Assembly: GCA_034440635.1 (NCBI GenBank)
Contig: JAOTON010000333.1
Location: 930,001 to 994,000, forward strand
Direction: 5' to 3'
Length of the DNA: 64,000 bases
Source: Lepas anatifera
Lineage: Eukaryota > Arthropoda > Thecostraca > Lepadidae
In this document: in pieces, positions 1,485 to 42,200 of the stretch
Numbering within the stretch: the stretch's first letter is position 1
Layout: the number at the start of each line of letters is the position of its first letter
The notes under the pieces: generated by a model
Told to the model about the DNA's origin: nothing
The model's database searches: none
The model's input: only the letters and a program-made list of their open reading frames with translations
Position numbers and translations under genes: made by a program

Positions 1485-1849
1485 AGGCAGGATTTTGCAC
1501 GCTCTCTCAGCCAAGCCCAGCCTACTCCCGTTCGCCTTCGGCACCATTTGGCCTCGTAGTTGTATTGCCGTAAACCTCCAAACAAAAGAAAATAAGAAAA
1601 CACACAAAACATTGGCAATTGAACACTCGCATGCAAATAATTGTCCTCTTAAAATCACCAATTGTTTATGAATGGTCACTTGGGTAGCCCTGGTAGGCAT
1701 GCAATAGCCTCAGCACGTAAGAAACCACCGTTGACGTTGAAAACTTCACCAGGAGGTGACACCTACCAAAATCTAGGCGATGAAAATCAAACGTAAAACT
1801 GACCTGGTGTAGATTTGAACTCGCAGTGTTTGGACCCGAATCCATGCAG

Positions 1850-2006
1850 CGGTGACTGCCGGCAGGCGGCACGCGGCGCGGCGGTGCGTCTGGCGACCAC
1901 GTGGACCGGCCAGGAGCCGCTTCAGCAGGAGGACCCAGAGATGTGGGGTCTGATCCAGGAGGAGAAGGACCGGCAGGTGCACGGCCTGGAGCTCATCGCC
2001 TCCGAG
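1850..2006 (+). CDS. SHMT2: SHMT exon 1 of recognised set (N-terminal part)
   Basis: Encodes WTGQE..., [20 protein letters not shown] and LIASE, the canonical start of the SHMT fold (substrate-binding Glu in LIASE). The donor GAG|gtcagt at 2007 ends in phase 0. There is no in-frame ATG: a stop at 1800-1802 precedes only a TTG at 1815, so this exon must be entered by splicing. Candidate acceptors are cag at 1824-1826, 1847-1849 (used here) and 1863-1865. An upstream exon carrying the ATG and any transit peptide should exist. The 3' boundary is sure; the 5' boundary is not. Confidence 0.88.
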
Positions 2007-23000: not shown

Positions 23001-26000
23001 ATTATCTACGGGGCGGGACAAATTGTATCGTATTCATATCAAACATGGATCAAATTCATCATTATTGCAAGTACCCCATCGAAATACAGGTTTTAATACA
23101 ACGTCGATTTAATATAAAATCCAAGACTTCTGTCGTCGAACTACCAATATTTTTAGCTGGAAATTCAGAGCTGCGGCTGCCAAGATCGCTGACGGCTGGG
23201 AAGCCTGCTCATCGCTTTCGCTTTTGCGCAGCATTCTTGTCATGGTCAGCGTTCCCCACCTAGACCCTCGAAGGCAGCCAACGCGCTGGGTTTGAATGGG
23301 AAGCCTCGGCTGTCGCTATGGCGCCTGCAACAGGGCGGATTGGGTGTCTGATGAAAACGCCGCGGCGATACCACATCGTCGGATCCGATGTTGCATCAGC
23401 CGCAGACCGGCGACTCGCATGGCGTCGGGAGGTTTTGGAGCTCTGCCAGCTTCCGGAGCAGCTCCGGTGACGCCCGCGGCTTCGTGGTATTTGTGGGTGT
23501 AAAGGCTTTCCTGTGCTGTGCCGAATATGTTGCGTTCATAGACGATACACTTTTGTGCGGGGGAAAGGCAGCGTTGGTACTGCCGCGCGTGAGGCGGATT
23601 TTGATGGCGGATAGCTTGGGTTCGAGTCCCGGCGTTGGCTGGGGAGGACGGGTTCTAGGTTTGACAGGCACTGCGGCTTTTTGCACATGGCACGATGTGT
23701 GACGGCCCCTGGCATGTGTCCCGACCAGCCCAAGGCCGGGGGCTCGGCCGATCGATAAACAGAGGGTGGACGGCCGGAGGGGAGCCTCAACGGGTGAATG
23801 TGGCTATCGGGCGGGCCGGAACATCTCCCGTTAGAATAGTAACGGGAAGCAGGAAGCAGCTGGACATGCGAATAAAGCCTGTTATAGCCATACAGCTATA
23901 CCGTTTTACCATCCCCTATAAATAAATAATTAAAAAAACACTGTAAACATTTATATTTGAGTGTCAGACGCTAAAACTCAAATAATTTGACCGCCAGTTT
24001 CTTGGGCCCTATGGCGGCACGGAGGTGTCCGTCCTCCAGGTGCTGGGACAGTGTAGGACACTGACTGCTCCCGCTGCGGCAGGTACTACGGCGGCACGGA
24101 AGTGTCCGCCCTCCAGTCACTGAGACAGTGTAGGACACTGACTGCTCCCGCTGCAGCAGGTACTATGGCGGCACGGAGGTGTCCGTCCTCCAGTCACTGA
24201 GACAGTGTAGGACACTGACCGCTCCCGCTACGGCAGGTACTACGGCCGCACGGAGGTGTCCGTCCTCCAGTCACTGAGACAGTGTAGGACACTGACTGCT
24301 CCCGCTGCAGCAGGTACTACGGCGGCACGGAAGTGTCCGTCCTCCAGTCACTGAGACAGTGTAGGACACTGACTGCTCCCGCTGCAGCAGGTACTATGGC
24401 GGCACGGAGGTGTCCGTCCTCCAGTCACTGAGACAGTGTAGGACACTGACCGCTCCCGCTACGGCAGGTACTACGGCGGCACGGAGGTGTCCGTCCTCCA
24501 GTCACTGAGACAGTGTAGGACACTGACTGCTCCCGCTGCAGCAGGTACTATGGCGGCACGGAGGTGTCCGTCCTCCAGTCACTGAGACAGTGTGGACACT
24601 GACCGCTCCCGCTGCGGCAGGTACTACGGCGGCACGGAGGTGTCCGTCCTCCAGTCACTGAGACAGCAGTGTAGGACACTGACCGCTCCTGCTGCGGCAG
24701 GTACTACGGTGGCACGGAGGTGGTGGACAAGGTGGAGACGCTGTGTCAGCAGCGAGCTCTGGAGGCCTACCGACTGGACCCGGCGCGCTGGGGTGTGAAC
24801 GTGCAGCCCTACTCCGGCTCCCCGGCCAACTTCGCCGCCTACACCGCCGTGCTGAAGCCGCACGACCGGCTGATGGGCCTGCACCTGCCCGACGGCGGAC
24901 AGTGAGTGGTCAGGGCGCACCCAGACTCCGTCTTAGAGGTGGTGATCGAGGGCCCAAACTACCGGCTGCTAAACATGATTTGGTTAACGAAGGACTATCG
25001 ATCTCTGATCGATGATTGGCCGCACAAACTGTTCTTTATCGTTCGGTATATTTTCTGGTGCTACGGTTCCTGTGTGAAGGTAAACCGGTCATTATGTGGT
25101 GGTGATATTGATGTTTTTGTTGCTGTATGCTCAATAAAATACTTCTAATAATGTCATTGGTGGTCTTTACTTTATACTACTAATTATAATTTACCTTACC
25201 TTTCTTTTATAATTGTTCTACATATGTCTGACAATAATGACTGTTTTTAGTAAACGAGACTATATGAATTTCAATATCGATGGGTAATGGGTTGGGAAAC
25301 CAAAAACTTGAATTCACTTTTTCTTGTACCGTACCGGCAGATATTGAACGGCATATGATGTAAGCTACCATTCTTCTGAAGCCTCTTAGAAAGAGCACGA
25401 CTTCTTGTGGGTGCTTAGAGATGTGCTTGTGATATACAGGTAGGATTTGCTTTATGTTGAGTCAGATGTTGTCAAACACCAGCTCTATGTTCAAGGGTAC
25501 GCGGAATCGATCGTTTCGACAGCGATAATTTGTTTACGTCTGGCGTCTCTTATATCGGTGAGACCGCGGAAGTCTATGCCACCTCACTGGATACCGCACT
25601 GGGTATGATGAGGCCGTCAAAACCATGAAGGCATTCAGCGGAACCTAGAAGTGGGCTCTGAAAAACTCCTTTATCTAGGTCCTGTGCATCTCTCAAAACC
25701 GGAAACTATCATGGGCGTCTAGAGCAAGCTGAATCTTATAGGATTCTAGGTGATGCAATCGGCTGATGCGGACGTTCCGCGCAAAGCCCGAACCTTCGTG
25801 GAAACTAGTCGCCCCCCCATCGCCGCAGCATCCATTTGGTGCTCCACGCTTGTGTGTTGTATAAACCCAAATAAACAAGTAGAATATCCGTGGATGCCTT
25901 CAATGAAAATCCCATGGATCCCAAACATCTTAAGGAAATGATACGTGTTGAGGACACTGAACTCATTCAGTGAGCAGTGCTAGATGCAATTGATATGCAG

Positions 26001-29000
26001 GAAATATGTACCACCTAGATTATTTGTACAATTTTCTTAGTACCAGGGCTGGAGAGGGATCCGGCCCTAGCGTGCACTGGAAGGGGGTTGGGGGCCCTGG
26101 AGGTTTAGAAACCAAGAGGATTAGGGGAAGCGGCCGCTCGGGTGTTTTTAGGGCTATGGTGGTCTTTATTTTAGCTAAATGCCATGAGCTTAGCTCAAAT
26201 CTTAAAGTTTAATCGATTTAATAAAAGTCAAATCCCAGCCACGCTTGGAATCTGTTGGGGGTTTGATTATGCAAAATAAGCAGGAAGTACACCAAAAGCG
26301 GATGCAGATCAAAGAGGGTAGGGCCCGTACAGTGTTGTCTGAAATTTTGGAGTCAAGGCCATTCAAGGGTATGACCTATGAAGTCACAGTATTACGTATT
26401 CTCATGATGTCCACTACGACTAGCACTATGGCAACCGTTGAACGGTAAACGGGGGTTTGGCCTTGACCTTTGATCTTTGGAATTAACCTCTGACCTTGAC
26501 CTCAACATTGAGTAACCTTGACCATGACTTCATGGCATGATATACCGCATACTGGACAACGCCATCTGACCGGAATCGTCGGGGTCAGTGACCTTATTGC
26601 TAGTTTGGCCTTTAAATTTAACATTTGACCTTAAACTCAAGCGACGTGAGTTTGACATATCATCCCGATTACGTGGCGTTGTGACGTCACCACTTGGTCT
26701 ACAGTGCTGGCGAGGCAGTGCGACCGTGCGATTGCGATGATCTCAAATTGTAGGCCTGACTTAGAGAGTCACACAGTTATTGACTGATTTTCACAGCTAT
26801 TTCACCATTGTTTCAAAATCCTTTGCCTTGAACAACCTTTTGCTATGTGATTGCTAGGGTTACTCAGAAATTGGGGTGGGGGTGGCCTTGCGTCCCCAAG
26901 CCACCTTATATCCGCCACTTTCCGGCCACCTCGGAAATATCGGTGGAGAGGTCTTCTAGCCTCCTCCTCCATTTTAGGTTGTTGTTTCGCACACAGTTTA
27001 TTTCACTGTCTGGGTGGCAAAGCTGACTATAACTGGCTGCATAGCAATTAAATGAACGTTTACAATTGGTTAGATATTAGTCTGCAATGATTGCAGTCGG
27101 TCTGCCCACTGGAGAAGGCGTTTTTTGCTTTAATTTTTATGTATTACAGGCTAATTCTTTAGTAAACCGCGATAGTTGTGGAGCGAGCTACTTACCACAC
27201 TGTTAGAATGGGCAAAATTTTAGAAGAATAAAGAAAAACATTTTGGATTTTTCTGTGTGGGAACATTTACTAAAGCTTCCTCTTAACAAAATGGCCGTAG
27301 ACGCTGGTGATTCCTAAAACCCCGCCTCTTCGGTAGTTCCACACCCACCTCTGACGAGTTACTACCGCCTGCAGTTGTAGTAGTTGATCCATTCTTCTTG
27401 TTATCCCAGTGTACCCGAACCTTAAACGAGGACGCAACTCACCGCGGTCCTCCCTCTCACTTCAGCCTGACCCACGGCTTCATGACGGACACGAAGCGGA
27501 TCTCGGCTACCTCGGTGTACTTTGAGTCGATGCCGTACCACCTGCACCCGAAGACGGGCTACATCGACTACGACAAGCTGGCGGAGACGTCCCGCCTGTT
27601 TCGGCCGCGGCTCATCATCGCCGGCACCAGCGCCTACTCGCGCCTGCTCGACTACCCCCGCTTCAGACAGGTGGGAAGGCTGACTACCCCCGCTTCAGAC
27701 AGGTGGGTAGGCTGACTACCCCCGCTTCAGACAGGTGGGTAGGCTGACTACCAGCGCCTCAGACAGGTGGGAAGGCTGCCTACCCCCGCCTCAGACAGGT
27801 GGGAAGGCTGTCTTGTGCCTACCCCGCTTCAGACAAGTGGGAAGGCTGACTACCCGCGCTTCAGACAGGTGGGAAGGCTGACTACCCCCTCTTCAGACAG
27901 GTGGGAAGGCTGACTACCCCTCTTCAGACAGGTGGGAAGGCTGACTACCCGCGCCTCAGACAGGTGGGAAGACTGCCTAATGCCTACCCTGCTTCAGGCA
28001 GGTGGGAAGGCTGACTATCCCCGCTTCAGACAGGTGGGAAGGCTGACTACCCCCGCTTCAGACAGGTGGGTAGGCTGACAGATTGACACATGGTAAATTG
28101 GAAATGGTGATTACCCATGCTTCAGACTCGTGGGAGAAGGGGGACTCTACCCCCGCTTCATACCGCTGAGAAATAAGATTATCCCGCTTTTGACTGGCAG
28201 GAAGCCTGACTACCTTAACACGCGCATTGACGGGGGGCGGGTACCCGCCCCCTCGAGTTTTTCGGAGATAGCAGAAAAACGGCGGCGCGTAGCGCCGCCG
28301 TACTTGGTATACCTTTTCCCTCATCATTTTTACAACTTCTGTGAAAGTTTTAAGGTTAGGTCATTTCAGGTCAGGTCACCAGTACAGGTCAAGTGACCCG
28401 ACCTAAAAAAAGTTGAAGATAGCATAAGTCGGAGCAGGGTGAACTTATCCGATTGAAACTCATATCACATAATGGCCCCACCGAGTTCTCTAACATATGT
28501 TCCGGTATTTTTGATATCGATGACGTAAGGTCAGGTACGAGGCATGACCTCTCCATTGGAAATACATGGGAAAAATGGTTTTTACGGAATAACTCAGTAA
28601 CGGATGGCGATAGAGCATTTATTTTAGCTGCATTAGACTCGCCTGGGCTTTGCGGTTCTAATGATATGCATTTTATATAATTTGACCCTGACCTGACCTC
28701 AGGTCAGGTCAAATCCTTGATTTGACCTAGCAAGGTCAAATTATATATTATTTGATTCGGCTTGCTGAGAGGATTCATATAGTTCAAGTCGTTTTGCTCT
28801 ATCTGTACTTGTTCAGATGAAATGGCCGAAAAACTGAATTTTACATGTTACCCCTATGGCGGGCATGTTTTGACCTCTCGTGACCTTAAATGTGACCTGA
28901 CAAAAAAATGGTTCAAATGTTTTCGATGGAGAAGTGGATGGGCAGCCCAACGCCGTTTACCGTTTTTCGCTACCTACCGTGGTTCTCGAGATCTTAGGGG

Positions 29001-32000
29001 GGCGGGTACCCGCCCCCCGTCAATGCGAAGGTGGCTCAGACCCCCGTCAATGCGCGTGTTAAGAAATTGCCGAAACAGAGTGTGCGGAAGTGAGGCACGA
29101 CATTCACGGTAAATTGCTGGGCCTTCGCTCCGCTTTCCAATGCTGCCGCCTGGCGGGAAATGTGGCGTGAAGGCTGTCGAGTGGGTTGCGGTGGTGAAGG
29201 GTTTTGGTGTCGCGTCTAACTAGGGTTTTGTGGCTAAGTGTTTCAGCTGAAACCATTGTGAGCGGTTGCGGGTGAGGACGTTCTCTACCGTAAAACGATA
29301 ATTATCAAAGCCCCTGCTGCAACCGTGTGATGACTTTCGAATCACCATCTTACTCAGATAAAAAACTGCTGAATTGTTCGGAAAATAACTATCAACAAGC
29401 CCTCTCCGTGAAATCCTCTTTCAAATTTGCAACGTCATTCCGTCAGTAACGTCTTGATCGCCCGCTCCTCTCCCCCACAGATCTGCGACGGCCTTCTGGA
29501 TCGCTCCGTTCACCCGTGTTTGACCGCCCTCCCAGATCTGCAACAGCGGTATGATTCACTCCGTTGACCCGTGTTTACCACCCCCTCTCGCAGATCTGTG
29601 ATGACGTCTCGGCCTACATGCTGGCGGACATGGCGCACATCTCCGGCCTGGTGGCGGCGGACGTCGTGCCCAGTCCCTTCGACTACGCTGACCTTGTCAC
29701 CACCACCACGCACAAGACTCTTCGTGGCGGCAGGTCGGGCTGGAGATGAGCATGCCGCGCGCACTGCGTCATGCGATAGCCACTCTTTGAGTGATCGCGA
29801 CGCAGGAGGTTTTCAACATTTTTGAAGCAGACTTACTACACTGAAACATTTTCTTGCTCATAGTGGTTGCATGTTAGAAATGAGGATTTTAATTCGTTGG
29901 GTGTACCCACATCCTTAAATTGATGAACCTATCGAGGTCATTTATAGTGTGCTTGGCTTAATATTTTCTGTTTTTATTAAGTCATTGAGCACCTTTGCAA
30001 TGTGTTTCGCTCATCGATTACTCCATCGAATACCATTAGATATATACACAATTTAAATAGCCCCTGTCCGTTTCGTGATGGGCCGTACTCCGCCTACAAC
30101 ACAATTTGGACTTCTCTTACCGCGTGACAGAGTTGGTCTGATCTTCTTTGCTCGTATCACGTGACAGAGCCGGTCTGATCTTTACTCTTACCGCGTGACA
30201 GAGCTGGTCTTATCTTCTTTGCTCGTATCACGTGACAGAGCCGGTCTGATCTTTACTCTTACCGCGTGACAGAGCTGGTCTTATCTTTTTCTTACCTTGT
30301 AACAGAGCGGGCCTGATCTTCTTCCGGCGCGGCGTGCGCTCTGTGAACGCGAAGACAGGGAAGGAGGTGATGTACGACCTGGAGGGCCGCGTCAACCAGG
30401 CGGTGTTTCCGGCGCTGCAGGGAGGCCCGCACAACCACGCCATCGGCGCGGTCGCCGTCGCCCTCAAACAGGCGAGCGCCACTGATTGGAAGGGAGCACC
30501 GGGGCTAAGGAAGGCGTGATGGGGTGTCGTTATACAACACTGAACCACAGTATTAAAGGGAATGTGGCACCTTCACAACGTGACTTTAACTGAGATAGCC
30601 AAGTTGTAAAGCAGGTCAGAAAACCCGGTACTCCATATTTCATTTGACTTGGAACTCGATATTTCCGTAGAAAAAAAGCTAAAACATACCTGACACCAGC
30701 CCCCTCAGCCCCCGTCGCCGGCGGCCATTGTTGTGAGCCACTGGTGTGACGACATATGCTGATGTCACGATGAGCATCAGCCAATCGAAGCCCTTGAAGC
30801 GTTTCAAGTATGGTAGGGGTTGCCAGATCGTGACATCAGCCACAGGCTGATATTTATTTCTTTTTCTAGAGGAATATTTTTAAAAACCAAATATTGAGCT
30901 TATTGTACATTTTTCAGAGAAATCGTGAGTGGTTTCATTATTTTTTACTAGAAGTACGCCTAATAACACTAAATTCCAGGATTCGACCAAGGTGCCACAT
31001 TCCCTTTAATATATACACTCTTTTAAGATGACTATTTACAGCTATGACTAAATTACCATTGTTCTGGACATTGGCGGATCCAGGTGTAACTTCTGGAGGG
31101 CCCAAACCAACATTTTGGGGGCAAAATTGGGAAAAATCGCTGAAAACAACACTTTTGAAGAAAACGGCTAAAATTTGGTCCTTTGGGGTTGGGGAAGATA
31201 CTGCTTTAGGCTTTGGAGGGGGCCATGGCCCCTTTGCCCCCCTCTTGGATGTGCCAGTGGTTCTGGAAGATTTGGTTGATGGTGACAATTTGTATTCGCT
31301 CTTACCCACAAAACCCTGATACACATCAGCTGTCCTGGGTCAACTCTTGCTATTTTCATCCTCCTACACTGCTTCACGAGTCACCTCAGTAGCCACACAT
31401 AATCTTACAATCGCCTGCTCTCCGCACAGGCGCAGACGCCAATGTTCAAAGCCTACCAGACCCAGGTGCTGAAGAACTCGGCGGCGATGGCGGCCGCACT
31501 GAACAAGCTCGGGTTCTCGCTGGTCTCGGGAGGCACCGACAACCACCTGGTGTTGGTGGACCTGCGCCCCAAGCAGCTGGACGGCGCCAGGGTAGAGCTG
31601 GTCTGTAACATGTGCAACATCACCGTCAACAAGAACTCGGTGCCCGGCGACAAGTCGGCGCTGAACCCGGGCGGCCTCAGGCTGGGTGAGATCCAGAGGA
31701 GAGGATGTAGAACCTGCCGCTGCCGGCTGGTGACGATATCGGCAGTGTACTGTTTCTTGGTTATGTTTTCTTTCAAAGGTGCGGCCTCAGCTAAATGCGT
31801 CACAAATTATTTGTGGTTATTGAGGAATGATTGAATGTCAAAATGACCATTTTGAAAGGCGCGAATGAAACGTTCCTGATCATTTAACGCAAAATGTTCG
31901 AATCTTAATCTTTGTAGTTTTAGACATGTGAGTTTAGCTGTGGCGCATTCGCTCCAGATACTTTGTGTCTTGAATTGTGTTTCGTATTTTAAGAGATGAT

Positions 32001-32992
32001 GATAAGTCGATGAGTTAAGATGATAGACATTGTAATCATTACCTCCAAGACTTTTGCATTTGAATCGAATGTGCTCCTCTCAGCAAACAACTACAGAATT
32101 GCGGGGTCTGAAACGTTCAACGCTTGAACCCTATATGAATGAATACGAGACAGTTGTCTTTGTTGAGGAGTATCTCCCACGGATTAGCCTTTGCATTCTT
32201 GCAACTCGTTGGCTGACATTCGGGTGCATTGCCTATGGGTCGGAAATCCTCGTTCTTTGGCATCAGTCTGTGAACTTGCATCCTGTATAAATCCTGACAG
32301 GTCCGGGCTGTGCTGACTATCACTGGGTGGCACACCTGGCCCGAATTCTGATAGTGGTGTTTGTGGATGTGTTGGCAATGACCGGGTCGTGTTCGGCAGG
32401 TGCCCCGGCGCTCACGTCCCGCGGCATGACCGAGGCCGACTTTGAGCGCGTGGTCGCCTTCATCAGCGAGGCGGTGGAGATCGCCGCCGAGCTTAAAGCC
32501 AAAACAGGCAAGTCCCGGCCAGCGCTGACTTCTCTGTAGTATGCTTTGCTACCTTTGATCTCTCTTTCTCTCTCTCTCTCCTCTCTCTCCTCTCTCTCCT
32601 CTCTCTCCCTCTCTCATGCGTCAGATTTGTAATGCAAACATGCTTTACTGTAGACTGTCCCTAACATTGCTAGATCCGATGTACTCAAACTTGGCCTGTA
32701 TTGGCTACGTCTTTGTAAACTTGGCCTGTATTGGTTGCGTCTTTGTAAACTGGGCCTGTATTGGCTGCGTCTTTGTAAACTTGGCCTGTATTGGCTAGGT
32801 CCAGAGTCGAGCGTTCTGTCATCGCTGTTGGCTAGCGCTTTATGGCTTGCGCTTCTCACAGGCAAGAGCTTGAAGGACTACAAGGCCGGGCTGGCGTCGG
32901 ACGCCGACATCGGGGCCAAAATCGGCGACCTGAAGCGGCGCGTGCGGGAGTACGCTGGCAAATTCCCCATGCCTGGCTTCGACGACCACTGA
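1850..32992 (+). CDS. SHMT2: Serine hydroxymethyltransferase gene, full recognised span (9 exons)
   Basis: Interconverts serine + tetrahydrofolate and glycine + 5,10-methylene-THF using PLP. The exons are 1850-2006, 11414-11493, 24701-24901, 27466-27670, 29594-29733, 30306-30471, 31430-31685, 32400-32507 and 32862-32992; phases agree at every junction. Conserved landmarks run in family order: WTGQE and [77 protein letters not shown], the PLP-lysine motif [54 protein letters not shown], and C-terminal FPMPGFDDH. About 480 residues, a normal length. Wording is closer to the mitochondrial SHMT2 form than to SHMT1, but many invertebrates have a single gene for both compartments, so the paralog call is an inference. 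The first coding exon with the ATG is not identified. Introns 6 and 8 use GC donors. Confidence 0.96.
2007..3354 (+). other. SHMT intron 1, first part, nothing recognised
   Basis: Start of a 9.4-kb intron (2007-11413). No repeat or exon-like signal recognised in this stretch. Confidence 0.4.
3355..3630. mobile_element. Short palindromic-ended GGATCC repeat, family A
   Basis: Full-length relative of the repeat at 1-215. It opens with CCTGGCATAGGCGGGTTCAGG and closes with CCCCTAGATCTGGCTATGC, with the same internal landmarks in the same order. Non-coding. Confidence 0.55.
3631..4505. other. SHMT intron 1 segment, nothing recognised
   Basis: GC-rich, CpG-rich stretch around 3740-4150. The ORFs there (for example 3724-4071 on the minus strand) have low-complexity Ala/Arg/Pro composition and match no family I know. 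No promoter elements recognised. Confidence 0.35.
4506..4700 (-). mobile_element. Short palindromic-ended GGATCC repeat, family B
   Basis: Reverse-complement relative of 31068-31262 and 63796-64000. The ends read CTGATCCAAG on the left and TTGATCCGCCAATG on the right; the interior includes 'ggggccgtggcccc'. Non-coding, about 190 bp. Confidence 0.55.
4701..5361. other. SHMT intron 1 segment, weak GAGGAGGTTGGA-like repetition
   Basis: 5110-5275 repeats imperfect 'gaggaggtt(g/a)ga' blocks. Nothing else recognised. Confidence 0.35.
5362..5532. repeat. GC-rich tandem array, about 30-bp unit
   Basis: About five units of the form CCCCTCCCCTGCCGCTGCCG followed by CAAGCGCAGA, ending in a (GCC)n run at 5513-5532. 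The opposing ORFs here are translations of the array (Arg/Gly- or Pro-rich) and not genes. Confidence 0.8.
5533..6832. other. SHMT intron 1 segment, nothing recognised
   Basis: No exon, RNA gene or transposon end recognised. Confidence 0.35.
6833..7276 (+). mobile_element. TTAA-flanked MITE, copy 1
   Basis: About 444 bp. It begins TTAA|AGGGAATGTGG(T)ACC and ends GGTGCCACATTCCCT|TTAA: terminal inverted repeats of about 17 bp with TTAA at both edges, the target duplication typical of piggyBac-type integration. The interior includes 'tgatctggcaaccactacca' and 'gtgacgtcagcatatg', shared with 8378-8835 and 30553-31009. No transposase, so non-autonomous. Confidence 0.8.
7425..8305. repeat. 33/34-bp tandem array (minisatellite), about 25 copies
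   Basis: The unit is approximately GGACCTGCGACTTTGCCGAC + CAGTTCGCTGGAC (33 bp). Variants have GCAGAC (34 bp) or CCCTGGAC. It sits between two direct copies of the TTAA MITE. It generates long stop-free frames on both strands (up to 455 codons on minus) that are artefacts of the unit. Unlike a CRISPR array there are no variable spacers: the whole unit repeats. Confidence 0.92.
8378..8835 (+). mobile_element. TTAA-flanked MITE, copy 2
   Basis: About 458 bp, in the same orientation as copy 1. Left TTAA|AGGGAATGTGGCACCTTGG, right GAAGGTGCCACATTCCCT|TTAA. Better preserved than copy 1. Confidence 0.85.
8836..11413. other. SHMT intron 1, last part
   Basis: Contains an AT-rich (ATAA/AAAT)n patch at about 9367-9415 and a GGATCCGCCACTG repeat end at about 10085-10102. 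Nothing else recognised; the ORFs are short and unrelated to known families. The polypyrimidine tract before exon 2 is modest. Confidence 0.4.
11414..11493 (+). CDS. SHMT2: SHMT exon 2
   Basis: Begins after acceptor gttgcag and ends CAG AG|gtgagt in phase 2. Encodes [20 protein letters not shown] and EGYPGQ, continuing LIASE into the conserved SEGYPG substrate/cofactor loop. 80 bp. No tandem duplication at either edge. Confidence 0.97.
11494..12732. other. SHMT intron 2, first part
   Basis: Start of a 13.2-kb intron. A GTGGCGTATCCAGGAC repeat end lies at about 11573-11590. Nothing else recognised. Confidence 0.35.
12733..13210. repeat. Degenerate about 30-bp tandem array
   Basis: Repeats CATCTCTGCACCCAGAGGCG followed by CYGCTCTG(G/T), with many substitutions and length changes. 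It becomes a roughly 38-bp form near 13100-13200 ('ggcgctgcagccgccgctct'). It yields overlapping pseudo-ORFs on both strands (for example 12484-13203 minus) of Gly/Ser/Arg-rich repeats. Confidence 0.85.
13858..14644 (+). pseudogene. Non-LTR retrotransposon fragment: RNase H domain and C-terminal zinc motif, frameshifted
   Basis: From 13858 to 14095 the frame reads an RNase H core with [18 protein letters not shown] (catalytic Asp in ITDS) and [14 protein letters not shown] at about 14094-14096 and a frame change break it where the family usually has SHxGIxGNE. The other frame (14078-14644) resumes [12 protein letters not shown], then [16 protein letters not shown] and a Cys-rich [14 protein letters not shown] block, the usual end of RNase-H-bearing LINE polyproteins (I/Jockey-like). 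It lacks reverse transcriptase and endonuclease, so it is a 5'-truncated dead copy. Clade assignment is an inference. Confidence 0.82.
14645..15954. other. SHMT intron 2 segment, nothing recognised
   Basis: No element or exon recognised. The ORFs at 14641-15377 show no family resemblance. Confidence 0.35.
15955..16046 (-). mobile_element. tRNA-like SINE head (minus strand)
   Basis: Read on the minus strand, an A-box-like AGCAGTCGGTTAGCACG is followed about 55 bp later by a B box GGGTTCGATTCC. A pol III internal promoter pair with loose spacing and no clean cloverleaf suggests a tRNA-derived SINE and not a functional tRNA. Confidence 0.5.
17215..17412 (+). mobile_element. SINE tail copy (5'-truncated)
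   Basis: Shares with 17560-17748 the run from 'ggcaactcagtggtga' through 'gacctgag', 'tgtgggac', 'gagttgctcgt' to 'ggtggggtcagggtctccg' and 'gatgactctagtgag'. It lacks the tRNA-like head and directly precedes the headed copy. Confidence 0.65.
17438..17748 (+). mobile_element. tRNA-derived SINE, full copy
   Basis: The head GCCCCGGTAGCTCAGTTGGT carries a near-perfect pol III A box, followed by GGGATCGGTTCC as a B-box-like site. The body is 'acaggtcggctggcaactga' onward, ending near 'tgatgactttagtgagacc'. The tail recurs at 17215-17412 and, reversed, at 55135-55312. The head-to-tail structure and dispersed copies identify a tRNA-derived SINE. Confidence 0.8.
19532..19778. other. SHMT intron 2 segment, nothing recognised
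   Basis: Short spacer between the fold-back element and the next family A repeat. Confidence 0.3.
19779..20035 (+). mobile_element. Short palindromic-ended GGATCC repeat, family A
   Basis: Starts ATGGGCGGAGTCAGGA and ends TGTGGATCCGCCTAC. The interior matches 3355-3630 ('gccacttttgggcg', 'gtgccatcgacctt', 'gaagggtcgat'). Non-coding. Confidence 0.65.
20036..21225. other. SHMT intron 2 segment with one dispersed repeat
   Basis: 20785-20905 resembles 39500-39640 (shared blocks around 'gctatacaaag', 'ccaaaatccaggg' and 'gatctccac'-like ends), a dispersed repeat of about 130 bp. Otherwise nothing recognised. Confidence 0.4.
21226..21432. repeat. 12-bp tandem array (TTGGAATACCTG)
   Basis: About 17 near-identical 12-mers with T/G swaps ('tttgaatacctg' and 'ttggaatacctg'). 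Because 12 is a multiple of 3, it is open in several frames and creates spurious Tyr/Leu/Glu or Ile/Pro/Thr repeat peptides. Confidence 0.95.
21638..22670. mobile_element. TTAA element, family C, about 1.0 kb, rich in AGGTCA half-sites
   Basis: The left edge TTAACCCTCGCCCCACCGGGG-type end and right edge CCCCGGTGGGGCGCGGGTTAA-type end form inverted repeats with TTAA at each border. Next to both ends is the sub-terminal CCATCGATGGCCCCC. The interior holds about 20 AGGTCA/TGACCT hexamers counted by eye. Relatives are at 45000-47648 (interrupted) and 61624-62598. No transposase ORF. Confidence 0.82.
22671..23565. other. SHMT intron 2 segment, nothing recognised
   Basis: No exon or element recognised. 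Confidence 0.3.
23566..23640 (+). mobile_element. Possible tRNA-like SINE remnant
   Basis: A clear B box, GGGTTCGAGTCCC, lies at about 23618-23630, but no convincing A box precedes it. It may be a decayed SINE head. Confidence 0.3.
24006..24700 (+). repeat. 77-bp tandem array duplicating the SHMT exon 3 acceptor
   Basis: Units of 77 bp (one of 76, last of 80) each end in a C/T-rich stretch plus (g)cag and then restart GTACTAYGGCGGCACGGAGG. Acceptor-like junctions fall at 24083, 24160, 24237, 24314, 24391, 24468, 24545 and 24621, before the true one at 24701. The first 22 bases of exon 3 (one substitution) are part of the unit; the exon then diverges from it. The unit length is not a multiple of 3. 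Entry at 24314 or 24545, which would keep frame by distance, meets a stop. Confidence 0.95.
24701..24901 (+). CDS. SHMT2: SHMT exon 3
   Basis: Acceptor ctgcggcag; AG from exon 2 plus G gives Arg, then [40 protein letters not shown] and [10 protein letters not shown]. It carries the cofactor-contacting YYGG and the SGSPAN segment. Ends GGA CA|gtgagt in phase 2 (His completed by exon 4). 201 bp. The 5' edge is the last copy of the upstream 77-bp array. Confidence 0.97.
24902..27465. other. SHMT intron 3
   Basis: About 26460-26800 contains a TGACC-rich dispersed repeat whose reverse complement recurs at about 39960-40300 ('gatctacagtg', 'gcgaccg(t/c)gcgattgcga'). A TATCCGCCACT repeat end is at about 26908. 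The remainder is unrecognised. Confidence 0.45.
27466..27670 (+). CDS. SHMT2: SHMT exon 4
   Basis: Acceptor ctcacttcag; C completes His of DGGH, then [38 protein letters not shown] and [20 protein letters not shown]. Ends CGC TTC AGA CAG|gtggga in phase 0. 205 bp. The last about 21 bases (DYPRFRQ) with the donor are repeated twelve more times in the adjacent intron. Confidence 0.97.
27671..28080 (+). repeat. 32-bp tandem array duplicating the SHMT exon 4 donor
   Basis: The unit is approximately GACTACCCCCGCTTCAGACA + GGTGGGAAGGCT. Donor-like CAG|GTGGGA/T junctions fall at 27703, 27735, 27767, 27799, 27837 (CAA|GTGGGA), 27869, 27901, 27932, 27964, 28002, 28034 and 28066, downstream of the true donor at 27671. 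Decayed copies run on to about 28170. The exon-derived part of each unit is the last 21 bases of exon 4. Use of the in-phase decoy at 27767 meets a TGA. Confidence 0.95.
28215..29062. mobile_element. TTAA element with GGGTACCCGCCCCC ends
   Basis: Left TTAACACGCGCATTGACGGG, right CCCGTCAATGCGCGTGTTAA: perfect outer inverted repeats with TTAA borders and sub-terminal GGCGGGTACCCGCCCCC palindromes at both ends. The interior has many TGACCT/AGGTCA hexamers, for example at 28360-28400 and 28685-28740. 848 bp, no transposase. It shares the TTAACACGCG terminus with 43667-44669 and 45450-47102. Confidence 0.85.
29063..29478. other. SHMT intron 4 segment, nothing recognised
   Basis: Unique-looking sequence before the exon 5 acceptor copies. 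Confidence 0.35.
29471..29593 (+). repeat. Three-copy repeat of the SHMT exon 5 acceptor
   Basis: C-rich tract + CAG|ATCTG occurs at 29481 and 29536 and then at the true exon start 29594 (spacing 55 and 58 bp). Between them GATTCACTCCGTTGACCCGT and its variant GATCGCTCCGTTCACCCGT show the units are duplicates. About 10 exon bases (ATCTGYRAYR) are included. Both decoys would shift the frame. Confidence 0.85.
29594..29733 (+). CDS. SHMT2: SHMT exon 5 (PLP lysine)
   Basis: Acceptor ctcgcag; encodes [35 protein letters not shown] and [10 protein letters not shown]. The lysine codon at 29714-29716 is the Schiff-base residue by family knowledge; Asp and His of ADMAHISG contact PLP. Ends GGC GGC AG|gtcggg in phase 2, a weaker but acceptable donor. 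140 bp. Confidence 0.97.
29734..30100. other. SHMT intron 5, AT-rich part, nothing recognised
   Basis: No repeat or exon signal until the acceptor array. Confidence 0.35.
30114..30305 (+). repeat. Alternating 34/37-bp array duplicating the SHMT exon 6 acceptor
   Basis: CTTACCGCGTGACAG|AG or CGTATCACGTGACAG|AG followed by (C/T)(T/C)GGTCTGATCTT occurs at 30131, 30168, 30202, 30239 and 30273, with the true site at 30306. About 18 bases of exon 6 (AGCGGGCCTGATCTTCTT) are echoed in each unit. Spacing is 37, 34, 37, 34, 33. The 30273 decoy lies 33 bases upstream, keeps phase and is stop-free, so it would add 11 residues that repeat the exon start (AGLIFF). Confidence 0.93.
30306..30471 (+). CDS. 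SHMT2: SHMT exon 6
   Basis: Acceptor ttgtaacag; AG + A gives Arg, then [20 protein letters not shown], the acidic/Gly-rich loop and [20 protein letters not shown] ending in KQ. 166 bp, phase 0 at its end. The donor is CAG|gcgagc, a GC donor: no GT within reach keeps the conserved ALKQ-A-TPMF continuity. Confidence 0.95.
30553..31009 (-). mobile_element. TTAA-flanked MITE, copy 3 (inverted)
   Basis: Same family as 6833-7276 and 8378-8835 but in opposite orientation, inside SHMT intron 6. Ends TTAAAGGGAATGTGGCACC and GGTGCCACATTCCCTTTAA. 457 bp. Confidence 0.85.
31068..31262 (+). mobile_element. Short palindromic-ended GGATCC repeat, family B
   Basis: Begins CATTGGCGGATCCAGG and ends TTGGATGTGCCAGTGG. 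The interior matches 63796-64000 ('ccaaaccaacattttggggg', 'gaaaacggctaaaatttggt'). 195 bp, non-coding. Confidence 0.65.
31430..31685 (+). CDS. SHMT2: SHMT exon 7
   Basis: Acceptor ctccgcacag; encodes [59 protein letters not shown] and NPGGLRLG. The arginine in GGLRLG is the substrate-carboxylate-binding residue by family knowledge. Ends CTG G|gtgaga in phase 1. 256 bp. Confidence 0.97.
31686..32399. other. SHMT intron 7, nothing recognised
   Basis: No repeat or exon-like signal recognised in this 714-bp intron; canonical gt...cag. Confidence 0.4.
32400..32507 (+). CDS. SHMT2: SHMT exon 8
   Basis: Acceptor gttcggcag; G + GT gives Gly, then [20 protein letters not shown] and [15 protein letters not shown]. 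108 bp. The donor is ACAG|gcaagt, a GC donor with the otherwise ideal AAGT context. Splicing here gives KTGKSLKDY with exon 9 in phase; the nearest GT (32511) would break it. Confidence 0.95.
32559..32615. repeat. (CT)n microsatellite
   Basis: Nearly pure CT/TC run with occasional CC in SHMT intron 8. Confidence 0.95.
32687..32799. repeat. 30-bp tandem array, about 3.7 copies
   Basis: Unit AACTTGGCCTGTATTGGCTG + CGTCTTTGTA. It lies in intron 8 but, unlike the other SHMT arrays, contains no copy of a neighbouring exon edge. Confidence 0.92.
32862..32992 (+). CDS. SHMT2: SHMT exon 9 (C-terminal, stop)
   Basis: Acceptor cttctcacag; GC joins the preceding G for Gly, then [31 protein letters not shown] and the family C-terminus FPMPGFDDH, with TGA at 32990-32992. 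131 bp. No AATAAA was recognised nearby, so the 3' end of the transcript is not placed. Confidence 0.97.
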
Positions 32993-35900: not shown

Positions 35901-38900
35901 TACAGTCTTTAATTTCTTCCCGGACGCCAAGTTTTTTTCTGGTTTAGAATTAATTAAAAACCTGCCGTTCCTAGGCCGCATTTATGTCGGCAATTGTTTC
36001 CTTCATGTATGTTTTCTTTGTTTCTGTCACGTAGACTTGTAGATGACTCGGTGCGAAGAGGGAGTCGGAGGAAAACTCTGGCCCGTGACTCAATCCTGCG
36101 TTTGAAAAGTGCGCGACTCAGCTTTTATCCCAACGCTAGTGTGTCATCCCACCTATTCCAGTAGCTTTGTCTGGCTATATTCTGGTCATTAGGTTCCAGA
36201 GAAAAAAATCGATTCCGAATTCGGCTGTAACCAAGTGGCACCGATTCCGACTCAAACAGATTTCGGGCTCTGGACACTGACTTGCTGAATCGGACTCAAA
36301 CACAGAACATGAGAAAGTTGGTCAGGGAACTCGCATAGGTATAAAGAGAGCCGCTCCCGCTTATCAACGGTTTCGGACACTCTGTGAAACATAGTTTTGA
36401 CTCACCCAGTTCAGTCGGGGTCAGGATTCAGGATTCTTCCCGGATGGATCCTGTCCCCATTAACGCCTGGTTAGCCTGAAATCACCTACAAGTTTGGCTC
36501 AGGAGCGAAGCCTTCACTGCTTCTGCCCTAGAGTGTGACATAGAATAGACACCTGAATGGATACCACATCAAATCTAAGTCATTCAAAGATTGAATTAAA
36601 TTGGCTAGGAAGCTCGGGTAAACTCAGGCACGATTATGGATTCGGATTCCGACTTTTGTGGATTTAGTCTTGTTCTTATGTAAACTGGATCGGAAATGAG
36701 CATGGAAACGCACGGGCTCGGATTTACCGGGAGAATGAGACATGGATCGGACTGGATCCGGATTGCCTTGGCCACGGCTCTACTCTGGGATCGTTAGACA
36801 TGTGTCGAGATCAGCGTCATTGGTTTCTTTCATGGGCTGCCGTAGCTGTGAGGACAAAACCTGCTGGCCTGCGGCTGTGCATTGTGTCCAGTGGCGGATA
36901 CAAGGGGAGCAAGGGGGCTCAAGCCTTCCCCCTCTGAAATATGTGAGTACCCATAGTAATCACATAAGAGGATATGCGAGGACAAGTTGGAGTAGGGTTG
37001 AGTCCCCTAGCTCCCTCCCCAAAATGAAATAGTGGATATGGCACTGATTATGTGATCTGTCTTACACAGAAGGGTTCGAAAATAAATCATGGAACTTGTG
37101 ACTTTGTGATTTAGTGCCAGACACACAGAGCACCCGTTTTGGCACGCCTGTTACCAGGCTTCCAGTGAACATCCCCAACGCTGGTCCACGCTGCACTGCC
37201 TCGCTTCGTCAGCTGTTTCACGCTCGGGCACGGCCCCATCTCATAGAGGCTCTGCTTCAGGATCTTCTACAAATTCGTCATTGGACTCAAATCTGGGTGC
37301 TCCCCTGCTAGGCCTGCATGGCCCAGAACCCCGGCATGTGTAGTTGGTACCAATCATGGGGCATCTTGGACTTTGTGTCGGCTCCCCATGCTGCATGAAG
37401 ATAACAAGCGACATCCCAGACACTATTTTTCTCCACATAATTGAATCCGTTCAAGCGAAACGCCCAGCAGCAAGAAGCAGGGTTTTGTTTAGGATCTCAG
37501 CGATTAAGTACTCGGATTTGGCCGTCTGTTTCTGCGGCGGAAAATCGATATCGGATGGGCTCTGGATTTTGGTCGCTTCCCATAACATCATCTTCTGATA
37601 AGCTCTTACGATGAGACTTGATTGAGCTGCCGATTTCTATTTGGCCTATTCACAATTTTACGGATTCGGGGAGTGTATGATCTTGAAGATGTATGTGTCA
37701 CTCAAAATGACGTGTGCAATGCCTCTCTCCACTTTATTTTCCACGACTTTGAAGAAACGAAACTTGGTTTTGTGTCATTTTTCTATATATTGAGCCGAAA
37801 CGATTGTTTTGAAATCTTGGTACTCAAAACGTGCTTAAAAATCGTTGGACAGACAATTTTGTATTTTCCTTTCTAAGTGAATATATTTGCGAATAGCACT
37901 GGCCGTTTTCCCCGCTGCCTTCGTGTGAACAATCTTGGTCACTGGGCTGACGCGTAAGGGCTAATCGGATAGCGTCTTTTTAGCCAGCATTACTCACGAA
38001 AATATTCCCAGCCAATTGTTGATGAATCAACTTGGAGACCCCTTCAGCTTTTTTTTGGTGCCTTTAGCCTATGTCATGCGGGCGCGGAAACGAACCGGTC
38101 TAGCGACGAGCCCCTTCCCAGACATCCACGTTTACGATTCCCAATTGACGGTGGTCCGTCTGCTTTGATGTCGAGCATAGGCAGAGGTGTTTACCGACCT
38201 TGCCACCGGGGCACTTTATAGCCTATAGCAGCTGATGTGCCCGTAAACTGCTATACAGACCGACTTGCCACAGACACATGTTGAGCTGATCCCATCGGTC
38301 ATGTGCGCAACAAGGCCGTGATCCTTTTTTACAGTTAATTTAATCTTATGATTGCCTGAGAATAAACTTGTGGAACACAGTGCATTGGCGGTGGAGCCAG
38401 GGGACCACCGGGACATCGGCTCCTCCTAAGGATGAATTTTAACATCACCACTTTGACGTTTACTGGAAAGAAATGGATCGAAAAGTCCATGGTGCCCCCC
38501 TTAAATCTGTACCCTCCGTCGCTACTGACATCAGGCAGTCCCACCTTTCAGTCTCTTATCAAAGGTTTCATCAACTACGGCTGCTTTGATTTGTCTTGCG
38601 TCAGAGTGGGAAATCGCTTTGTAATTAGTATGCATATTTTCTTATATATACATTTAGCCATTATATACACATATATACAGCTGAATTGTGAAGTTGAAAC
38701 GATTCCTTATTTTTTCTCATTTATTTGCTTCTAACTGGCGACTGCAAGCAACACAGGTGATGGCACAGCTGGCAATGGAAATTATCACGAGCTATATATT
38801 GGTCATTGCTGATTTCGCTGTATAGTAAACATATTTAGTTGGCTCTCATGTGTTAACACACCTATAGAGTTGAACCAATTGAACCCAAAGTGAGCAACGT

Positions 38901-39185
38901 TTGTAAAGAAACAAAAAAGGCAATTGGTTGTTGAAATCATTCATTTGTCCGGTATTTTTAGCCACGTAGTCTTCTCGGGGGCCCCCGCCGGTGGGATTCA
39001 TTCTGAGCGGCCACTTAAGCGCATGAATTAAGTCCATAACCGTCTCCGGCTCCCGACGCGGCCAACCTACTCCGTTCGGCACCTCCACTCAGATGACCTC
39101 CGAGGTCACTCCGAACCCGACATTGTGTCACGTGACCTGGGTATCACCATCCTGACCTCTGGCGTCACCCGCACGTGCGGCTGCA
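32993..39185. other. Convergent intergenic region, no gene recognised
   Basis: Lies between the SHMT stop and the POMT2 stop. Contains a GTGGCGGATACAAGG repeat end at about 36890 and AT-rich patches near 38600-38730. TTTATT at 38720-38725 is a candidate AATAAA on the minus strand, about 460 bp past the POMT2 stop. The ORFs here show no family resemblance and no spliced pattern. Confidence 0.45.
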
Positions 39186-39285
39186 TCACGTGAGCCAGGA
39201 GTCCAGCAGGAGGTAGTTGGAGATGAGTGTCGGGCCGCTGCCGTCGCCAGGCAGTCCGTAGGCCAGCTCCCAGTTCTGCCAGTAG
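39186..39285 (-). CDS. POMT2: POMT2 exon 17 (C-terminal, stop)
   Basis: Acceptor ctgttccccag; AG + C gives Ser, then [32 protein letters not shown] and TGA. It matches the family ending (LAYG..., LDSW). 100 bp. Confidence 0.93.
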
Positions 39286-42200
39286 CTGGGGAACAGCGGT
39301 AGCGGCGGTCAGAGCTTCTATCCGCTCTGGCGGTGTTGCGTGAGGTTGGAGGAGATGGTGTCTATCAAGTGTCTATTCTGATTGGGTGTGGTTTGTAATC
39401 ATTTGTCGAGGGAAAGAAGCAAGCCACTGATCGTTGCGTAGCAATTCATCGGTGGATTTTTTTGTGTGCTTTGGGCAACGCTGGAAGTGGAAAGTGAAAC
39501 TCGACCAAAGACGGGAGGGGGCCCTGGATGAGTCAACGCTAGTACGACAATACAAACGCTATACAAAGCCTGTGGGAAACCCAAAATCCAGGGGAGGGGT
39601 GTTCTGATCCCCCAACACCGCAGGATCTCCACCCATGGCTTTGGATATCACTATAGCTCCCTATCGCATCAGGGTCTCTAAGCAAGGCAGTTACATTAAG
39701 TGCAGCGAAGCGGAAACATGAAATCGTGAATTTCTGCTCTCTCTCCACGTTTTAGTTTGTAACGTAAAATCTCTGTGAGATCATGCGACTCCCATTAAAT
39801 GGATAGTTTGAAATCATCCAACTGATATCAAAGAAATAGGACCCTTGCTTCCCGGTATTAACGAGCGAAGAGGAGAGGGAGTTTCTGAAGTCCCCCTCAT
39901 TTTCCAAGGTAGCGGGAAAATGGTTGGCGTCTGGAAAATTATACTACGTTATATTTAAGAGAATTCATGACCGCGTCGATCGGGGAAATAATTGTGGAAA
40001 TCGGTAAATAATTGTCTGATTTATGGGCTTCAAAGTCAGACCAATATTTTAAGATCGTCGCAATCGCGCGGTCGCACCAGTTCGCCTGCACTGTAGATCA
40101 AGTGTTGACATAATAACGTCATATGCCCAATCGGGATTATATGTCAAGGTCATTAACACATTTGAAAGGTCATTGGCAGCAGTATTCCGGTCACATACCA
40201 TTACTTAGTATGACTTATGCTATGATATGGCTTCTTCATAGTTAAGGCTGCTCAATTTTAATGTCACGGGTCAAGGTCAAAGGCCTATTTCCGAGGGTAA
40301 AAGCTGATTTCTCGCCCGGAGGCTGCTATGGTGCCGGTTATGTTGTACATTATTAGAAATATGTTATATTATTACGTCATAGGTGAGTGGCCTAGAATGA
40401 CCTTGATCTCACACTTTCAGAGCACATTGTGTGGGACCTTGCCTCTATGACCCTAGTCCGATTTCAGTGTACTTTAACTTTTTAGCATAAACATTTCCTA
40501 AAAGGTTTCCAGCACGGCACATATTTGACCTGTATGACGTTCCTTTGACCTTGAATATATTTACATAAATTAAAGAAACCTGGCTATAATGTAGATCACC
40601 ATCCACAATATAATGTAGACACACCCAAACGGGCGTTTTGATAGCCATGCTGTGTTTTTTGTTTTGTTTTGTTTTTTTTAGATCTCGGGGCACTTTACGA
40701 GTCCCCGTCTACTGCGCCTTGACGTCAGACCCCTCTCCACTGCGCGTGTACTGCGCGTGTTGATAATCATACGTGCCATATGACCTTAGCTGCCGGTGGG
40801 CCCTGAAACCCCAAAGAAGATGATGATGGCGGTATTAATGTGCACAACGGATAGTCTCACCTGTGAGCGTAGAACGCAGTGAATGCAGCGAGAAGTGAGG
40901 GTCTGACCAGACCTCTGGAGAGGGCAGGCACCCAGCCCTCCACCCAGCTGATAGCTCCATCAACCAACAGTCCTGTAACGCGTGCACACGAGACACACGT
41001 GAACGCCCAAATTCGAGGAACGGTTCATTCACCACGGTTGCGGTTTTTAGCCGGCTTTGCTACCGGCAGCCAGGGCTTTGGCCGCTGTTGCGTCGTGAGT
41101 ACCCCTGCGAACTGTGCCACGCGAAATCAGTTCAGACCGCCAGACGTGCACAGTATATGCCGAGGTTTAATGAGGCATTGTGATATAGCCAGGCCGCTGA
41201 AAGCACCCTAAAACACAAGTAAATGAGGTTTGACGCGTATTGGGACAGAAAACTAGGGAAGCACGTTACAAAACCCGCATCGCAAACATAGCCCGCGCGA
41301 GTCAAGAGACACAGGTATTGAATGACTGATTTCGAATGACTGATTTCGACATCCCCTACAACACTACCCTTCAGTCGGATCAGCGACTGCCTATCGCCAG
41401 TGGCCCCGCACACTGGGTTAGCGCTCTGTGTTCTACGTCTACGTCGGCTGACCTGTTATCATGGTACTGAAGAAGAAGGCGGGTAGATAGTGGTGAAAGT
41501 ACAGCACCCGGTTCATGGTCCAGAAGGGCAGGTAATGGAGCGCCCAGGCCAGCAGCAGGTACCCCACCCCCTCCTGCACGCGAGCAACTCCTGTCGAGGT
41601 CAGGTAGGTAGTGGAGGGTCGCGTCGGATTGCCAACATGTATGTCACACTCTCAGACACACGAACGACTCCTAATCCTATAGAGGTTAGGTAGTGGATGT
41701 TCGGGTTGCCAGCAGGTCAGTCACACCTTCAAACACACTAATCACTCCTGTCAAAGTCACGCAGGTAGTGGAGGGTCGGGTCGGGTCGCCAGCAGGTGAC
41801 AACAGGTCACACCTTCAAACACCAGCGACTCATACCGAGGTCAGGTAACAAATGGAGGGCCCTGACCACAGGCACGCACCCGCTGTGCACAAGCAGCTCG
41901 TGCTGAGGTCAACACTGGGTACTGCAGCAGCTGCTTGTTGAGACATTTTCAGCTGTGAGAATGATATTGATGATGAAGTTATTAAGCATACGAGCGTTGC
42001 CTTGCGAACTGACATATTGAATTACCTTCTGCTATATCATTTTTGTCACTTTTTATCAGAGTAGTAAAAAAGCCATCCGAGCCTATATCGGCTGATCGAA
42101 AATATATTTCAGGATGTATTTCAATACACAGGAACAAATAGAAGGTACACATCACGATATAAACATATCTCAACACGTACTCGCGCAGGCGCAAAAGTAC

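Follow-up and report, generated by a model that had tools for sequence, protein, structure and literature searches.

Five of the 45 splice junctions modelled in two neighbouring genes of the barnacle Lepas anatifera, SHMT and POMT2, are embedded in tandem arrays whose units copy the splice site together with the adjoining edge of the exon. The genes lie in a 64,000-nucleotide stretch of contig JAOTON010000333.1 (assembly GCA_034440635.1, positions 930,001 to 994,000 of the forward strand), which is referred to here as the window and in whose coordinates all positions are given. The 45 junctions are not the full set, because the 5′ end of SHMT is unplaced, as are two or more POMT2 exons. The arrays look like a known phenomenon encountered in a new animal group, and it is quite probable that they are the barnacle counterparts of the 'mirages' of lancelets, namely tandem duplications that span a junction and are tolerated as the additional copies accumulate on the side of the intron. 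Whether such arrays exceed at junctions what is expected by chance depends on the null model.

Arrays crossing five splice junctions

Each junction was represented by 60 intron and 25 exon bases, for which the best gapped local alignment with approximately 500 bases of the adjoining intron was determined, the alignment being required to extend 8 bases past the junction in both directions. Scores of 62–148 were obtained at exactly the five junctions named in an initial annotation of the window (SHMT exon 3 acceptor, 134; exon 4 donor, 148; exon 5 acceptor, 62; exon 6 acceptor, 110; POMT2 exon M acceptor, 78, in a run made with an earlier placement of the site at 41573), the remaining 40 scoring 24 or less. 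One donor and four acceptors are affected. Tandem Repeats Finder (TRF) at score 50 found three of the arrays (SHMT exons 3, 4 and 6), those of SHMT exon 5 and POMT2 not being reported by it even at score 30. The arrays are the following:

24009..24722, + strand: SHMT exon 3 acceptor array, 77 bp, 9.2 copies (TRF), ending 22 nt inside exon 3
27650..28079, + strand: SHMT exon 4 donor array, 32 bp, 13 copies (TRF), beginning 21 nt before the end of exon 4
29480..29601 (ends approximate), + strand: SHMT exon 5 acceptor array, weak, three copies (gapped alignment)
30114..30320, + strand: SHMT exon 6 acceptor array, 34/37 bp (TRF periods 34/71)
41550..41871 (ends approximate), − strand: POMT2 exon M acceptor array, degenerate (gapped alignment), first exon base 41590

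At SHMT exon 3, eight decoy acceptors (gcag^GTACTA, with ^ marking the junction) precede the true site at 24700/24701 with a spacing of 76–80, and 22 exon nt are shared. At exon 4, the true donor (27670/27671) is accompanied by 12 decoy donors (cag^gtggg, one with caa) spaced 31–38, with 15–21 exon nt shared. Exon 5 has decoys at 29481 and 29536 and its true start at 29594 (spacing 55 and 58; 5–8 exon nt shared), and exon 6 has five, at 30131, 30168, 30202, 30239 and 30273, with the true start at 30306 (spacing 33–37; 15–19 exon nt shared). The POMT2 array consists of three copies spaced 77–84, with 64–72% identity and 13–38 degenerate exon nt shared, two of the three retaining the AG. The exon overlap of 10–22 bases given in the initial annotation therefore fits three of the five arrays, the exceptions being exon 5 and POMT2. 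Likewise, its statement that the unit includes the AG or GT holds for 29 of the 30 extra copies (8 at exon 3, 12 at exon 4, 2 at exon 5, 5 at exon 6 and 3 at POMT2), the exception being the POMT2 copy that lacks the AG; the position of the true exon as terminal copy of its array is a matter of construction.

Spacing spans 31 to 84 bp across the five arrays and differs between junctions. The identity of the copies to the true copy ranges from 61 to 97%, with a divergence of 3–13% in the exon 4 array and of 28–39% in the exon 5 and POMT2 arrays. The units themselves were suggested at the outset to be unrelated, reflecting events that arose separately at the edges of exons, in genes unrelated to each other, and not a spreading sequence, and this is borne out: no convincing relationship emerged from the 10 pairwise comparisons of the five units with shuffles (lowest uncorrected P, 0.035), no unit copies were found elsewhere in the window by blastn at E 0.01, and each unit includes the edge of its own host exon.

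The two genes

The gene models that define the junctions are:

1803..32992, + strand: SHMT (mitochondrial-like) gene, spliced frame of 496 residues, 9 exons, 5′ end uncertain
1803-2006, 11414-11493, 24701-24901, 27466-27670, 29594-29733, + strand: SHMT exons 1-5 (5′ end of exon 1 uncertain)
30306-30471, 31430-31685, 32400-32507, 32862-32992, + strand: SHMT exons 6-9
39186..61056, − strand: POMT2 gene, 15 exon pieces (A-O) from tblastn and exon models, at least two further exons unplaced

For both proteins the best matches are from barnacles. In protein searches SHMT is 85% identical to that of Pollicipes pollicipes and 83% to that of Amphibalanus amphitrite, and its alignment with five relatives is free of gaps at the four affected junctions. 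The POMT2 exon pieces were placed by tblastn with a human POMT2 sequence as the query, and the joined protein finds its best matches in Pollicipes (54% identical) and Amphibalanus (53%). The acceptor of POMT2 exon M, first set at 41573, was replaced by 41590 because the phase of the preceding exon demands it, and the length of the Amphibalanus protein agrees with it; both candidate sites fall within the same array. Protein length varies among relatives at exactly this array-bearing junction, between exons L and M.

SHMT and POMT2 are convergent neighbours, and their linkage seems conserved in barnacles: the contig listed with the Pollicipes matches has 56,197,492 bases for either gene, and that listed with the Amphibalanus matches 930,323 bases. 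GC donors appear to be used in two of the eight SHMT introns of the model, after exon 6 (CAG^gcgagc, 30471/30472) and after exon 8 (CAG^gcaagt, 32507/32508).

Comparison with known systems

The anchoring of repeats on exon boundaries, which the initial annotation took to be undescribed, has been published both for lancelets (PMC3087553, PMC3902484) and for human paralogs (PMC2812944). In the Adh3 gene and the globin genes BflGb6 and BflGb9 of lancelets, tandem repeats spanning the intron/exon boundary were named mirages; they occur on donor and acceptor sides, carry AG or GT in many, not all, units, and have unit lengths of 10–160 bp that differ between genes (PMC3087553). Instability of their length was reported, reverse transcription polymerase chain reaction suggested regular splicing, and it was proposed that mirages can found new introns (PMC3087553). 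Similar repeats are present in lancelet PGBD5, TnC being cited as a further case (PMC3902484). The barnacle arrays resemble mirages in anatomy, with minisatellite-like copies across the boundary at 5 of 45 junctions, on both donor and acceptor sides, AG or GT in 29 of 30 extra copies, and units of 31 to 84 bp, varying between genes within the range reported for lancelets. They differ in that their host is a barnacle and not a cephalochordate, and in that five of them occur in two neighbouring genes.

In human paralogs within segmental duplications, minisatellites with units of about 30 bp were found at exon–intron boundaries, where they account for 27 intron modifications (PMC2812944). These are also boundary minisatellites, but they are exon-derived, differ from one paralog to another and are linked with alternative transcripts and novel introns, whereas in the barnacle it is introns already in place that carry the copies, on their own side of the junction. 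The tandem genomic duplication of AGGT-bearing segments has been reviewed as one route of intron gain (PMC3443670); there, too, splice-site sequence is copied within genes, and AG^GT is present in the barnacle units of exons 3 and 4, but in that route the duplicated segment is exonic and the outcome is a new intron. In UBC, dual-specific splice sites stand in tandem arrays, with AG^GT sites in series, a feature shared with the arrays at exons 3 and 4 (PMC10809524); however, the UBC repeats are coding monomers that are spliced stochastically, and the internal sites of the barnacle arrays are putative decoys. In zebrafish, 43 exact tandem repeats overlap intron/exon boundaries, as the barnacle arrays do, but 42 of them have units of 3–5 bp and one a 30-bp unit, and among 191 repeats whose unit is 18, 24, 27 or 30 bp long, one lies on a boundary (PMC2901318). 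In the portions available, the repeats considered in a prawn lectin paper are coding (PMC7536079), and boundary repeats are not treated in a paper on lancelet VCBP (PMC2632668). No report of such arrays in a barnacle or other crustacean was recognized by title or abstract among the barnacle and crustacean matches listed in a search of the open-licence literature.

Consequences of using the decoy sites

The effect of the decoys was predicted by using one at a time with the rest of splicing normal, cryptic exons formed from two decoys being left out. A premature stop results from 26 of the 27 SHMT decoys (8 of 8 at exon 3, 12 of 12 at exon 4, 2 of 2 at exon 5 and 4 of 5 at exon 6). The remaining one, exon 6 decoy 30273, adds 33 bases, keeps the frame and inserts 11 residues, duplicating an AGLIFF stretch. 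Four of the five arrays retain the splice dinucleotide in full, the value for POMT2 being 0.83; 30–62% of the other adjacent column pairs in the same arrays match this, so that in none of the five arrays did the comparison of the AG or GT columns with other column pairs give a signal of selection on decoys. The exon-like and intron parts of the copies are also conserved alike (0.92/0.89, 0.92/0.97, 0.64/0.68, 0.80/0.76 and 0.64/0.71 in the five arrays). Because the splice dinucleotides are not specially conserved and the two parts diverge alike, the copies behave as ordinary minisatellite sequence, and the decoys look like passengers.

Frequency at junctions under different null models

The window was chosen for the pattern, and the P values that follow carry no correction for that choice; moreover, the score threshold of 60 was fixed after the scores were known. 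Of 900 positions drawn at random at a distance of over 150 bases from any exon, 54 scored at least 60, as did 4 of 420 tests within exons. When repeat coverage is taken as the reference, 15,750 circular shifts placed on average 3.3 junctions in repeats, with P(≥5) 0.25, and random placement of whole arrays gave 2.6 expected (P 0.09). An ungapped test, which misses the two weak arrays, showed no excess, with 3 of 45 junctions at 21 or more matches out of 30 versus a null rate of 7.6% of 3000. When distinct arrays are counted under circular shifts, five are hit by junctions versus 2.2 expected (P 0.033).

A different picture is obtained by placing the founding units. Since an array grows from one unit, so that its outer edges should stay put, this seems to be the appropriate null model. 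With the 13 arrays of the window collapsed to their units (derived from 14 repeat runs, of which 17248 and 17604 are halves of one two-copy duplication), 0.41 are expected versus the five observed (P 8e-6), and with the largest higher-order units 0.96 versus 5 of 13 (P 0.001). An array end 8–45 nt inside an exon is expected 0.35 times (P 3e-5). Matching for GC content is needed because exons have 62% GC versus 47% for non-exon sequence, and the GC-matched founding-unit null gives 0.91 expected (P 3e-4). If four arrays only are counted, the founding-unit P values become 2e-4 to 0.009, and 0.005 to 0.06 with three. At a threshold of 50 all five hits stay (15 runs), and at 70, 80 and 100 there are 4, 3 and 3 hits (17, 18 and 15 runs), the founding-unit nulls having been run at 60 only. 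The founding-unit P values overstate the case, because the unit lengths were assigned by the analyst and the window was picked for the pattern. Junctions lying in a repeat with 40 nt into the exon repeat-free were three versus a mean of 0.48, a figure that is not used here as support. The suggestion that anchoring at exon edges is systematic has, within the window, the distinct-array and founding-unit counts in its favour (P 0.033, and 8e-6 to 1e-3), while the coverage-based ones give it little backing (P 0.25 and 0.09).

Origin of the arrays and alternative explanations

Slippage between short direct repeats is a usual model of minisatellite birth. Direct repeats are present at the edges of three arrays: GAC at both edges of the exon 4 array and CTTCT at both edges of the exon 6 array (30111-30115 and 30318-30322), in each case about one unit apart after collapsing the array, and a 19-base near-repeat of the exon edge as a boundary of the exon 3 array. 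It can be proposed that a short segment happening to straddle a splice junction was duplicated by slippage or end-joining between such repeats, and then expanded as a minisatellite through unequal exchange. The extra copies would land on the intron side, leaving the coding sequence intact provided that splicing takes place at the exon-proximal site, and the decoys would drift as passengers, persisting since splicing mostly ignores them or since stop-bearing mis-spliced products are lost. There would have been five separate births, probably at different times given that divergence spans 3–13% (exon 4) to 28–39% (exon 5 and POMT2). With this scheme, the boundary arrays are probably a harmless by-product of DNA slippage.

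Several points weigh against this interpretation as a full account. The edge repeats were read by eye, at the three arrays whose edges are resolved. The splice sites taken as used at the affected junctions are those indicated by reading phase and protein conservation, and relatives vary at the POMT2 L/M junction (around 41590 and 42482): of five, Amphibalanus agrees exactly in length, and the other four carry 1, 8, 8 and 28 additional residues. Neutral placement alone does not obviously account for 5 of 13 arrays at junctions. Finally, some decoys may be used, human boundary repeats being accompanied by alternative transcripts (PMC2812944).

This last point leads to the idea that the extra sites are useful, the arrays being kept for regulated, noisy or evolvable splicing or to buffer the true site. 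The retention of AG or GT in 29 of 30 extra copies, the full-length frame with 11 more residues offered by exon 6 decoy 30273 and the alternative transcripts and novel introns of the human paralogs with boundary repeats (PMC2812944) speak for it, but in all five arrays the AG or GT columns are no better kept than many other column pairs, premature stops are predicted for 26 of 27 SHMT decoys, and POMT2, one of the two most diverged arrays, lacks the AG in one of three copies. Usefulness is judged improbable; as to the suggestion in the initial annotation that decoys could feed noisy or evolvable splicing, their signals are not preferentially conserved, although some decoys may be used. It is very unlikely that the assembler made or miscounted the tandem copies. 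The lancelet BflGb6 mirage did appear misassembled in a draft genome (PMC3087553), and the copy number of the barnacle arrays is that of one assembly; however, the copies differ from the true copy at 3–39% of sites and TRF reports longer periods (71, 102 and 165) in some arrays, which argues that the repeats are not simply duplicated reads. An introner-like or other mobile element inserting at splice junctions would explain why several junctions are hit in two genes, but the sequence shared at many junctions that it calls for was not found among the ten unit pairs, no unit recurs elsewhere in the window and every unit contains its own host exon edge, which leaves this explanation with hardly any probability.

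A fourth possibility concerns frequency and is compatible with the slippage origin proposed for each array, namely that minisatellites are abundant enough in these introns for some to abut exons by chance, with coding constraint trimming the arrays at the exon edge. The comparable repeats found outside exons at 54 of the 900 sampled positions, the circular shifts and whole-array placements, and the ungapped count of 3 of 45 versus 7.6% are all in line with it, whereas the count of distinct arrays (5 versus 2.2) and the founding-unit, higher-order, array-end and GC-matched nulls (0.35–0.96 expected; P 8e-6 to 0.001, window choice uncorrected) are not. Absence of bias is accordingly given a chance that falls not far short of even. 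It is put forward, more tentatively still, that in barnacles, and perhaps in lancelets too, minisatellites preferentially arise or persist at splice junctions, which would make exon edges recurrent founding points of tandem arrays in unrelated animal lineages, supplying duplicated splice sites at a rate above chance.

Other repeats in the window

Two stretches, at ~28215-29062 and 21638-22671, have inverted terminal sequences (TTAACACGCGCATTGACGGGGG... and GTTAACCCTCGCCCCACCGGGG...) and, by eye, many GGTCA motifs; they look like two insertions of the miniature inverted-repeat transposable element type. SHMT intron 1 holds a large 34-bp minisatellite at 7408-8316 (TRF periods 95, 351 and 385), and SHMT intron 2 the two-copy direct duplication mentioned above, at 17269-17750 (spacing 326–328, pieces 75–88% identical). 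Between POMT2 exons, at 55800-58668, degenerate repeats fill nearly 3 kb, their periods being about 18–20 and longer. Open frames at 13839-14641 are similar to RNase H and the C-terminal part of a non-LTR (long terminal repeat) retrotransposon.

Significance

A structure in print from lancelets and human paralogs is now found in a barnacle, and is therefore a candidate for a general process and not a lancelet oddity. There is a hint, open to testing, that minisatellites may be founded preferentially at exon edges. If the bias towards junctions holds genome-wide, mutation would thereby supply alternative splice sites directly and, under the model of the lancelet globin paper (PMC3087553), new introns as well. 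Boundary arrays are, in addition, a practical trap for gene prediction in barnacles.

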